From assembly GCA_012845835.1 (NCBI GenBank), contig JABAKD010000016.1, forward strand, positions 24,148,053 through 24,212,052: a stretch of 64,000 nt of DNA, given 5' to 3'. A program made the position numbers and the translations under genes. The notes under the pieces are model-generated. The model was not told where the DNA came from and searched no databases. It saw only the letters and a program-made list of their open reading frames with translations. The stretch comes from Undaria pinnatifida. Its lineage: Eukaryota; Sar; Phaeophyceae; Laminariales; Alariaceae. Of the stretch, positions 40,290 through 53,545 are shown one piece after another; position 1 is the stretch's first letter; the number at the start of each line of letters is the position of its first letter.

Positions 40290-42144
40290 ATGAGTGCGCT
40301 GTCGAAGGCTTCGCCCCTGAAACGCAAGCCAGCTGAGAGTTCTAAATCCCCCTCCAAGCCCAAGACTACGCTGGAACCCGGCAACCCCCTGTGGTTTTGC
40401 CTCAACGCTCAAGACTGCCCCGAGGGGCGGCTCGGGGTCCGCACGAAAAAGGACGGCAAGCACTACACGACGTGCGACAAAAACGACTGGAGGGACCCGG
40501 AAACGTGCAAGGTGACGTGCTCGTTCCTCGCCCCCAGCAAGGATCACCCCCACAACTGCCACATCTGCCTGCAGGACGTCGGTGGCAAACCTTCCATCGG
40601 CATCCCAACGGACGAAGTCGACGACCGCGGGTACAAAGGTGAGCAGCAGAGTTTTGTTTGAATATTCAATCTAACCGCCCGTTCCGGCACGAGCGTGTGA
40701 GATAATCATCGTGGGCTGCCGCGCTCTCCGCTCGCTCGCCGCGCACGAACACCCGCCCCCCACCCAACAACTTTCCGTGTGAAGATGTGGCTGTCACGGG
40801 GCCATAGTTTAGGAGTCGTTTGTTGCTGCTTTTTGTGCGTACATGTAGCAACCGTGCATGTTGAAGTTGTGAGCGCGACCAGAATTGCCGTGACTGTTTT
40901 TTTGTGCTAAAGTTTGTGTACACAGCAGCAAAGAAAGCATGGAAACAGCAGTTCGATCCAGTCATGCTGCACCTCTTCAACCGCTTGACATGCCCAGGAA
41001 TACGAAACAATGCCTTTCCGCCACCGCTCGCATCCTGTACGTTGTCACTCACAGAGCACGTGTTTGCACGTTTGCACCTTTAACCACGTGACATCTCCTG
41101 ATACTTTTTGCTTTGTGCATGTCGCCCTGCCGCACTTTATTTTTTGCTCAAGTGTGGGAGAATTACTGCGCGGTGTTCTCCCTCTGCGCGGGAGCAAGGA
41201 CCAAGGACGGCGGTACCTTCAAGAACGCCACCGCCGCTACCGGTGACATCGTCGGCGTAAGTGCATGCGTTCGTTCCAAAGTGTATCAAGTCGCTCGATG
41301 TGTACGTTCCCGGCTGCCGCGTGTTAAAGATGTGCCATCAGGGTGGAAATTCACGGGTGTAGACTGCTGTCTGTAGACTGCTGTGTGTGTGTGTGTGTGT
41401 GTGTGTGTGTGTGTGTGTGTGTGTGTGTGTGTGTGTGTGTGTGTGTGTGTGTGTGTGTGTGTGTGTGTGTGTGTGTGTGTGTGTGTGTGTGTGTGTGTGT
41501 GTGTGTGTGTGTGTGTGTGTAGACTGCTGTGTGTGTGTGTGTGTGTGTGTTTTTTTTTTTTTTTATTGTGTTGTGTGTGCGTATTGCCGGTTTATGTGGT
41601 GTGCTGTAATCGAGAGAAGAGGGAAAAAGCATAGAAGTATAATACAACAAACCTCCGTTGCTTTGTGGTGTTCGCATGTGCATATCACCAAGGCTCCCTT
41701 CCGTATTGTGAATGCGCGAGAACACCAGTTTATTCGGCAGACGATGAAGCATTGTGCACTCCGCAGCAGTCGTTCCTTCGTAACATGCACAAACATGCGA
41801 ACACCATATTTTTTTTCAGAATTTGCAACACGTCATCCGCGACTCCCTGCTCCCCTACCCTCTTCCCTGTTCCGTTTGGAAACACACAGAAACGCTGCGC
41901 GGCCTGGGACGAAAAAAAGTCGTCAAAGGACAACCCGTGCACGGGCAAAATCAAGGCCGGCGACCTGGTGGTCAAGAACTGGGACGACCCGCCCCTCCAC
42001 CTCGTGTGCTCGAAGCGAGAGTGGCGGAAGATCGTGGACGAGTTCCTCCACAAGCAGAAGGTGCTGCACGACCTTGGTTCCACCGCCGAGAAGGAGGCAT
42101 CCCAGCCGTCCGCCAAGGTCCCCGACAACCTCAAAGACTTCTGA
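40290..42144 (+). CDS. Cysteine-rich accessory protein of Helitron H1 (gene A)
   Basis: Four exons: 40290-40638, 40926-41036, 41153-41256 and 41890-42144 (stop). GT/AG sites and phases 1, 1 and 0 agree, giving 273 codons including stop. Module 1 (residues about 30-110) has eight or so Cys in a zinc-ribbon-like spacing, including ETCKVTCSF, HNCHICLQDVGGKPSIG. Module 2 (exon 3) reads WENYCAVFSLCAG. Module 3 (exon 4) reads NPCTGKIKAGDLVVKNWD, then SKREWRKIVDEF, ending NLKDF. I recognise no named domain; metal binding is inferred from Cys/His spacing. Two paralogues (51265-53545 and 54324-57639, minus) share modules and intron sites. Exon 2 is a phase 1-1 cassette missing from the paralogue, and the intron found in both paralogues inside module 3 is absent here. 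It stops 77 bp before the Rep-helicase start on the same strand, suggesting a role in the element's life cycle. An upstream in-frame start is possible. Confidence 0.75.
41381..41567. repeat. (GT)n microsatellite, about 165 bp, with T run
   Basis: A nearly pure GT array interrupted once by agactgct, followed by about 15 T. It lies in the third intron of gene A. The 80-residue poly-Cys/Val and poly-His/Thr frames are artefacts. Confidence 0.95.
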
Positions 42145-42221
42145 GGTGAGCTCAAGATCAACCGGGCAAAGCGCTCCCCTAAACCTTTTATCTGAACGCG
42201 AACTTGAAACTTTAACCTTCC

Positions 42222-51081: not shown

Positions 51082-51264
51082 TTAACCAGAAGAAATGGCA
51101 CGGAAGCTGAAAGGCTCAACAATGTGAGGTTTAATTGTATTGAAAAGTGCTTCGTCGCAATAAACTGCGAGAGTGGCTTCAGGATATATAATAGCATTGA
51201 ACGCTCAAAATGCCTTCCTTGCTCACTAAATGTCGACGCTCGTCGTGCGTGTGAATTCTCCGGT

Positions 51265-53545
51265 TCAGAAGTCGATCAGGTCGGGGGTGATGTCCGCCGA
51301 CGGTTTCTCGGTCTCTTTAGACTGGGTTGTTCCGAGGTCGCGGGTGAGCGCTTTCTTGTGGAGTAGAGCCGTGATCTGCAATGGGTGTGGGGGGGGGGGA
51401 AGCAACAGACATGTACAACGTTGTTGTAGTTGTTGTTGTTCTCACATTAACTCGCATAATCAAGTACGTGGTCACAGAACAGGCTCCAGTTGCTCTGGAG
51501 CTGAGAAATACCCCAGGGAAAAACACAACAAACTAAAGGTGGTACACGCATGTATCACAGCTGACACAATTCATGCCTCCGCCAGAAACATATATAAAGT
51601 GAAATCGGGAGTCAGCCTACGATGGGCCAGGTCCATACTGGTGCATATGTCTCACTACTTGTATGTGATGTTCGCATATTGTGTTGATTGCAATATGAGT
51701 TAAGTGTACCCTTGCGTCAAGTAATGAATACGCTACCCGAACAGCACCCACCTTTTCCCTCCATTGTTTTTCAGCACACTGGACGTGGAGGAACGGCTCG
51801 TCCCACTGCTTGACGATAACCTGCCCTAGGCGGAGGTCCCCGGTGCAACCGTCTTCCAGGGTGTCCGTATTGTTGTCCTCGTCGTGTAGAAGGCAGAGCT
51901 TCTGCAACAATTATGTATTGTACGAACAGAAGGGGTGGATTCATAAGTGATGCGGAAGGTACGTGGACGATTGATATTGGAAGGGCTGACCTAATTTGAG
52001 GGGGGGAGGGAGGGAGGACGTATCAAAACAAATGATGAATCTAAAACATAAAAAGGGGCAGGTCGTTGATGGAAAATTGTAGTGGAACATGGAGTTTTGA
52101 GTTCAAGAAGGAAGTTGGGTGGTGTGAAATAGGCCGCCGTGTGCAGGAAAAAAAAACTCTTGGCTAAAATTTAACCCGCTAGTTCAAAAAATGCAAACGT
52201 CCGACGCGTGAAACGAAGACAAATCCAATTTGCTGTCACGTGCGGATGAAGTTGAGAAAAACAGATACATCCACGTACGTACATCATACCAAACACACGG
52301 AGGTAATGCAAGACGAGCGAGCAAATATAATGTTGCGCTTACACCAGCGCAACACTCGCCTGTGTATATAGTGCACGCGTCTCGCCTTCGAGCAAAAAGG
52401 AAATATCACAAGGGGGGGCGTCGATTGAAATGCCAAGAAGAAAACCAGCGAGGTGGCAGGAAGCAGTCGTGCCTAGACTAACACGCTTATGTAAAAAAAA
52501 AAGATGCGAACAAGTAATTCGGCACCCTGCAGTACCACGATAACGGACAATCTCTAACAACAACAAAACAAATCGATACACACGCAGCCTCCAACGGCGA
52601 TGACGACACCGTGTACAGCAACAAACAAGCAAATCGATACGCGCTCTTATCTGAAATCATGATAGAATATCGGCCGGATATCCTACAATAACGGCGGGAC
52701 ACCCTACCACGACAACAACAATATCTTGTCTTCATGCTCACCCCTACGTGTTCTTCCGTCACAGGAGTAAGGTTGGAGAACTTTTCGGACATGGTCCCGC
52801 GTTTGCCGACACAGGAGGTCCGCACAGCGTGGATGTTTTCCCAGACTGTTTGAACAGGGCAAAGAAAACATGCAAGATTGAGATTGTCATGTCAGCGGTC
52901 GAAGTACGTTATACTTTGTACATAGCGCATAAAAAATAGATACACATGATTGTGGTACAGTACACAAAATATGACTACGAAACGGTACACAAAGCATGAT
53001 CGTGAGTGCATGGTGTGGAGCTTACGTTGGGAACCGCCTTCTTCCCTGCACTGTCTGCCGAGCGAAGGCGTGCCTCCGACGTCTTCGCCACACACCTGGC
53101 AGGGGTGCGGCTGTCCTTTGCCTTTTTTAAAAGTTGGACACGAGACCTGGCAGGTGCTCGCGTCCTTGTCGATCTGCTGGTCGCAGTGTCCACAATGAGT
53201 CTTCCTGTCGTTCCTTAGACGGGTGGCGATGAAGCCCGAGCAAACCGCGTGGTAGGGGCAAGCCCACTCGGGGTTGCCCACTGCCTGGGGGCGTCTGGAC
53301 GCCCCTACCGTACGCCACTCTTGGTTATCGGGGTTTAGCGTGTTGCGAGATAATGTCGGGAGAGCGCTACCATCTGACACCGGTAGGGAGAAGGCTTGGG
53401 GGTGCGATAAAAATGTGGGTGTGAAAGGTGGTGGTGTGGTTGTGATTTGAGGGGGGGGGGGCGCGGACTGATGGGGTACGTTATCGAAGACAGCGGAGAT
53501 ACCTTTCGTAGATGTCGTAGTACACATGTATGAAACGCACGCCAT
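51265..53545 (-). CDS. Cysteine-rich accessory protein of old Helitron H2 (gene B)
   Basis: Four minus-strand exons: 53545-53026, 52845-52742, 51901-51752 and 51375-51265 (stop). Phases 1, 0 and 0 agree, giving 295 codons including stop. Residues 1-80 are Pro/Ser/Thr-rich. Module 1 contains NPEWACPYHAVC, HCGHCDQ, STCQVSC, HPCQVCGEDVGGTPSLG. Module 2 (exon 2, 104 bp, the same length as exon 3 of gene A) reads LWENIHAVRTSCVGKRG. Module 3 reads DGCTGDLRLGQVIVKQWDEP and ALTRDLGTTQSKETEKPSAD, ending DLIDF. The reading frame is intact over all four exons although the Rep half directly downstream (start 51081) is full of frameshifts. That implies recent decay of the Rep, selection on gene B, or a host role. 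No known domain is recognised. Confidence 0.75.
51380..51660 (-). repeat. (AAC)n-tailed dispersed repeat in gene B intron 3
   Basis: Same unit as at 25250-25513 but inverted: GTT/GTTGTT run, then ctcacattaa…gcataatca…gtggtcaca, then …ctgggg…, then homology to the 25250-25390 flank through to about 51660. A G9 run lies at about 51391. Confidence 0.65.
51905..52740. other. Gene B intron 2
   Basis: Non-coding sequence between exons 2 and 3 of gene B. Small frames only; nothing recognised. Confidence 0.5.

Follow-up and report, generated by a model that had tools for sequence, protein, structure and literature searches.

A small cysteine-rich gene that precedes the Rep-helicase gene on the same strand probably belongs to the Helitrons of the kelp Undaria pinnatifida as a standing second gene, and we consider, with moderate confidence, that its product serves as a nucleic-acid-binding cofactor of Rep. 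The gene was found in a 64,000-nucleotide stretch of the 511-Mb genome (C22:24148053-24212052, hereafter the window), which contains three copies of it: gene A in Helitron H1, gene B beside the Rep of the broken Helitron H2, and gene C in the smaller Helitron H3 (Table 1). The gene has been inherited together with the Rep-helicase across many diverged Helitron families. Its product would be small, basic and probably nuclear, and would combine a cysteine-rich, zinc-ribbon-like domain at the N-terminus with a C2HC finger at the C-terminus; it most likely binds nucleic acid and would work with Rep in rolling-circle transposition, where it could either recognise the element ends or hold the displaced single strand, the latter a role proposed for the RPA-like proteins of plant Helitrons. 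What favours this cofactor reading is that the gene tracks Rep through many families and adjoins it.

Gene A has three exons and encodes 235 aa, and gene B has four exons. An earlier reading of the window from its letters alone (the sequence-only reading) had placed the two genes 77 bp and about 180 bp before a Rep gene on the same strand; the distance from the gene A stop to the ATG of the H1 Rep-helicase (42222) is indeed 77 bp, and that from the gene B stop to the ATG of the H2 Rep (51081) is 183 bp. Its description of the two genes as well diverged, with shared intron sites, was likewise borne out: the proteins are 38% identical, introns 1 and 2 lie at the same place and in the same phase, and exon 2 is of equal length in both. 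Of seven nearer families compared, six (A, B, L021, L023, L028 and L037, but not L033) have splice sites at matching places, with the exon-1 donor and the exon-3 acceptor of the gene A/B type found again in L021, L023, L028 and L037; among the distant loci, L041, L042 and L044-L047 have an acceptor two codons earlier. Several other copies begin with MSALSR-SPAKRK, and the matching stretch is out of frame in gene B of the window. A gene B start at 53545 was discarded as a probable read-through of an upstream stretch that is probably not the ancestral start. A long (TG)n tract occupies window positions 41380-41550 within intron 2 of gene A, where several other H1 copies no longer align continuously, and its length seems to vary among H1 copies.

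Linkage was read genome-wide in both directions. With exon 3 of gene A as query, every one of the 45 H1-family matches was followed on its strand by a Rep at 80-113 bp (at 81 bp in 43 cases), and 26 of the 31 diverged matches had one within 3 kb downstream, at a median of 776 bp. Taken together, 71 of the 76 exon-3 matches had a same-strand Rep at most 3 kb downstream versus 0.025 of 76 expected from randomly placed Reps, and chance is excluded genome-wide as the cause of the linkage. One of the five matches without Rep (C30:22551316) is followed by Rep remnants about 1.1 kb downstream (L035). The exon-1 query had a Rep within 7 kb for 45 of its 50 matches at ≥80%. Two distant-type exon-3 queries, combined with a matched Rep query, had a Rep within 3 kb at 8/8 and 23/33 loci; against the H1-based Rep list, the corresponding figures were 7/8 and 14/44 matches.

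In the direction from Rep to gene, the less biased one, two groups of loci were read. The first was defined by the 21 leading diverged Rep matches in list order (20 loci, L021-L040, with two matches in L028), whose upstream sequence was fetched regardless of gene matches; the second consisted of eight more distant, hand-picked Rep loci of 34-40% identity (L041-L048). The exon-3 finger was present upstream on the same strand in 20/20 loci of the former group, accompanied by exon 1 in 19 of them. In the latter group, the finger exon was found within the fetched stretch in all seven of L041, L042 and L044-L048 (weak at first in L048, then confirmed), and in L043 the gene lies beyond an inserted Ngaro-like retroelement, 7.4 kb from Rep. 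In total, the finger exon precedes Rep on its strand in all 28 of the diverged loci fetched. The inserted element (L043:3125-5846), situated between the accessory gene and Rep, is Ngaro/DIRS-like by eye, with open reading frames (ORFs) for a reverse transcriptase and a tyrosine recombinase. Among H1-family Rep matches, 46 of 49 had an exon-3 match upstream. Among diverged Rep matches, only 28 of 82 had one in the gene-A-based list; the gene-A query cannot reach more distant genes, but the other loci were fetched only in part. This genome-wide linkage supports the sequence-only reading in its proposal of a cysteine-rich gene upstream of Rep as a candidate Helitron accessory gene. In the window's own genome, to which the family test was confined, the family is multi-copy and stands upstream of Rep (45/45 H1-family exon-3 matches and 28/28 diverged Rep loci fetched); it does not consist of single-copy host genes, and in H1 and H3 it lies inside the Helitron ends.

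The gene and Rep have been inherited together. Their distance matrices across seven families are correlated (r = 0.918, a value reached by 11 of 5040 permutations), and both place A beside L021 and group L023, L028 and L037. The gene evolves faster than Rep, with distances of 0.29-0.78 vs 0.19-0.49. For exon 1, the ratio of nonsynonymous to synonymous substitution rates (dN/dS) was 0.09-0.34 in 12 pairs at dS < 0.7; it was 0.10 for L028-L038 and 0.13 for L028-L025a, an H3 copy (approximate Fisher tests 3e-8 and 1e-9), and the C-type branch of the gene is under purifying selection. More distant exon-1 pairs gave 0.31 to 0.74 at high dS, and exon-3 pairs were mostly too similar or saturated for this ratio. 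Protein pieces at L021:5963-7318 and L022:5963-7318 are 88-92% identical to P0026 of Pylaiella littoralis, which is high for such distant brown algae, and horizontal transfer or slow change are possible explanations.

Six Cys are invariant in the exon-1 domain (nine sequences aligned), as are C, H and C in the exon-3 finger (11 sequences aligned). Paired Cys/His ligands are conserved across diverged families in the aligned sequences, a pattern that suggests zinc binding by the predicted protein. The finger of the distant families takes the form [IV]GKxCxxC...[IF]xx[GA]D...HxxC[AS], present in 6/8 distant loci, in none of the nearer loci and not in the window; this pattern, itself built from these sequences, occurred in 0/480 Markov-shuffled loci. 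The N-terminal S-[PH]-x-K motif was matched in 20 of the 32 relatives listed but in none of the remaining 12, many of which are partial. Predicted isoelectric points are 8.75 (gene A) and 8.41 (P0026, the Pylaiella relative). The Cys/His parts have no credible sequence match in Pfam or PDB, and no RPA OB-fold domain was matched in gene A or B by sequence in either database; the gene is of a new accessory kind, and no test identified it as RPA. Resemblances suggested by eye were rejected: PARP-type, LIM, topoisomerase and EsV-1-7 zinc fingers gave no Pfam match up to E 10, a range in which the HMMER filters drop most weak ones, and the RPA zinc ribbon, topoisomerase ribbon, PARP-type finger and EsV-1-7 found no support in Pfam or PDB. 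In EukProt, half to two thirds of gene A aligns at 99-100% identity with P0001 and P0006 (jgi/Undpi1). Besides Undpi1, the organism-named relatives belong to Ectocarpus sp. CCAP 1310/34 and Pylaiella littoralis, so that among the named matches the family is brown-algal only. Gene matches and Rep matches of other brown algae, compared by eye for common contigs, gave no pair, and viral contigs gave no confirmed loci for the gene family or Rep.

The elements belong to the Helitrons; their ends are non-canonical, and an OTU-like domain is fused to their Rep. The H1 Rep combines Helitron_like_N (E 4e-38) and PIF1 (E 9e-61), both above the Pfam cut-off, in one protein, as is characteristic of the Helitron superfamily; its OTU match reached 22.2 bits vs a cut-off of 23.3. 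The hairpin near the 3′ end that also marks the superfamily was found in H1 and in H3 (-28.4 kcal/mol). The canonical ends 5′-TC and 3′-CTRR are absent from H1, which reads TAGAGG...CCCTTG(TA), and the H1 Rep gave no Pfam match to a Helentron-type apurinic/apyrimidinic endonuclease, with the OTU-like domain there instead. Gene A can be placed within H1 because the ends of this element are fixed by the interrupted H2 Rep together with the 5′ and 3′ end features. The H2 Rep ORF on the minus strand stops near 48750 and picks up near 39618, in frame by eye. The 5′ border (A, then TAGAGGTAAC) was found in 19 of 20 H1-family loci, the window copy among them, and an A precedes the 5′ end in all 19 loci holding that end; the 3′ flank of the window copy starts with T, and the H2 ORF is rejoined, by eye, without target duplication. 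H1 has therefore inserted between A and T without duplicating its target, as Helitrons do. H1 is intact; since 34 of the 41 matches covering all 300 Rep query residues retain a 1713-codon open frame and 48 gene A exon-1 matches at 98-100% in the host genome are free of stops, it is a good test case. Two H1 exon-1 copies (L001 and L002) stand head-to-head at C19:876866-877453. H2 looks like a dead copy, because the N-terminal stretch of gene B is out of frame and its Rep is broken too. In the relative P0010, sequence matching window positions 36207-36076, beyond the H2 Rep, directly adjoins the 5′ region of H2 and the initial portion of gene B exon 1; P0010 would be a deletion derivative, which agrees with gene B being part of H2. 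The H2 3′ end may lie near 35072 on the minus strand, where a hairpin precedes CCCTTA.

Window matches of L025, L029, L031, L034 and L041 end ≤20 bp from one or both borders of H3. The H3 copies in L025, L029, L031 and L034 are without a full Rep, and a C-terminal piece of Rep closely follows the H3 3′ border in L031. Because the C-type locus L027, which has a Rep, shares with H3 a 154-bp stretch (L027:6610-6763, 95%) that runs up to the H3 5′ border (window 57996), a Rep-bearing element of the L027 type is the likely source of H3, and L027 a candidate autonomous partner of this Rep-less element. Gene C exon 1 is doubled by a tandem duplication inside H3 (window 54867-57547, ~1.34 kb, 97% identical). 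For the C-type exon-3 query, 150 of 835 first-look candidates were scored; these matches are mostly of 81-84% identity by eye, many with the 177-aa frame of the window H3, and there are at least dozens of H3-like exon-3 copies. Seven H3-type exon-3 matches at an exact spacing of 934 bp (C1:1231763-1237537) look like a tandem array from a Helitron segment.

Several observations weigh against the cofactor reading. The main evidence against a strict pairing of gene and Rep is provided by the Rep-less copies: 7 of the 36 leading C-type exon-3 matches had a Rep within 4 kb and 29 had none in the list used; the diverged exon-1 matches had one within 7 kb in only 12 of 40 cases, 28 having none in the list used; and the second distant-type query left one of its 33 loci with a Rep at 7.4 kb and nine without Rep. 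The main Rep list holds the 131 scored of 218 candidates, so a Rep missing there is not proof of absence, and the Rep-less matches arise at least partly from Rep-less Helitrons such as H3. Outside the alignments, the Cys/His pattern has exceptions in the L033-type exon 1 (first Cys pair outside the matched stretch), in L039 (one Cys lost), in exon 3 of L027 (no first Cys) and in gene C (no final Cys). The A/B/C branch is joined to the distant branches by weak profile scores (0.006 to 0.24), the shared motif and position, and L037-L039, alone among the low-divergence exon-3 pairs in having synonymous changes, gave a dN/dS of 0.50. Sequence search yielded no credible Pfam family or PDB chain for the gene family, and the AlphaFold models from alignments A4 and A6 were both poor (mean predicted local distance difference test scores of 40.2 and 40.9).

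The gene could alternatively encode an anti-silencing or regulatory factor that counters host repression and takes no part in strand transfer, VANC of Mutator-like elements being the model for such a factor. Its faster evolution relative to Rep fits a host-facing protein, and the fused OTU-like domain, by its presumed role, suggests host-facing parts in these elements; however, the finger exon upstream of Rep in 28/28 diverged loci fits a cofactor at least as well, and we judge this alternative rather unlikely. Less probable still is a captured passenger, retained by chance and without a role for the element. Helitrons capture genes (PMC6431247), and the lost finger Cys of gene C, the four loci with H3 copies lacking a full Rep and the dozens or more of H3-like copies would all suit a passenger, but the linkage in many families, the correlated distances, the purifying selection and the conserved introns and Cys/His disfavour it. 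The position directly upstream of Rep on the same strand, at 77 bp in H1 and 183 bp in H2, could also mean that the gene is a former N-terminal part of Rep that split off, its fingers acting as the N-terminal zinc fingers of other Rep-helicases; this is very improbable, as the N-terminal region of the H1 Rep retains its own Cys pairs, which do not vary among the 11 aligned Reps. The preferred cofactor reading may be extended, tentatively, to an undescribed protein family that a large Helitron lineage requires as its second transposition protein and that has accompanied Rep since before the brown-algal radiation, with Rep-less gene carriers living off its product and the Rep from other copies.

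Among known systems, animal Helitrons are described as encoding one protein only, a Rep/helicase, and RPA-like genes are the helper proposed for plants (PMC4067079). The RPA-like genes of plant Helitrons and Helentrons resemble the kelp gene as separate helpers beside the Rep-helicase, and are proposed to bind single-stranded DNA (PMC4067079, PMC6431247); unlike them, the kelp gene has no RPA domain by Pfam and PDB sequence search, and is spliced and cysteine-rich with two distinct conserved parts. The Phytophthora proto-Helentron is likewise a stramenopile Helitron with A/T insertion, no endonuclease and extra ORFs of unknown function, given as hypothetical and SET-domain, whereas no cysteine-rich gene fixed upstream of Rep is reported in the accessible part of its account, a distinction drawn from its description (PMC4067079). 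The upstream ORF of FoHeli3 in Fusarium is also without known domains, Helitron-only and upstream of the transposase, but it is in the opposite orientation and occurs in one subgroup only (PMC5148889). Fanzor, with its C4 zinc finger, is another Helitron-borne accessory protein (PMC3627910); unlike it, gene A and gene B have no Fanzor-type domain by Pfam. No description of such a cysteine-rich Helitron gene was found in the accessible literature (PMC12477816 within scope; subscription journals and Repbase outside). Kelp Helitrons may use an overlooked helper protein, because the conserved second gene matches no described family in the searches made. A co-inherited second gene without a family-library match would offer a new handle on Helitron end recognition and single-strand handling.

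Table 1. Coordinates of the Helitrons and their genes (window positions)
Feature	Position	Strand	Remarks
Helitron H1	39619..48749	+	~9.13 kb, within the H2 Rep ORF; ends 2-bp ambiguous (shared TA)
Gene A exon 1	40290..40638	+	SPLKRK N-terminus and cysteine-rich domain
Gene A exon 2	41153..41256	+	104 nt
Gene A exon 3	41890..42144	+	C...C...H-x2-C finger, tail, stop
H1 Rep-helicase	42222..47357	+	1711 aa; C-terminal OTU-like domain
H1 3′-terminal GC-rich hairpin	48703..48740	+	Fold -31.9 kcal/mol; then CCCTTGTA
Broken H2 Rep, 5′ part	48750..51081	-	
Broken H2 Rep, 3′ part	37240..39618	-	OTU-like end by eye
Gene B exon 1	53026..53545	-	N-terminal part out of frame in window copy
Gene B exon 2	52742..52845	-	104 nt
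Gene B exon 3	51752..51901	-	Finger
Gene B exon 4	51265..51375	-	Tail, stop
Helitron H3	53761..57995	-	4.2 kb, carries gene C, no Rep found; 3′ hairpin and CCCTTGTA
Gene C exon 1	57250..57513	-	Second, tandem-duplicated copy 56175-55908
Gene C exon 3	54688..54870	-	Final Cys of H-x2-C lost relative to Rep-linked C-type copies

Elsewhere in the window, a long low-complexity stretch (612-2700) is open in all six frames, with repeated KARQG / LPCLA translations, and a dispersed repeat family occupies 23582-29885 and 58871-59676 in several copies of both orientations that are 75-89% identical.

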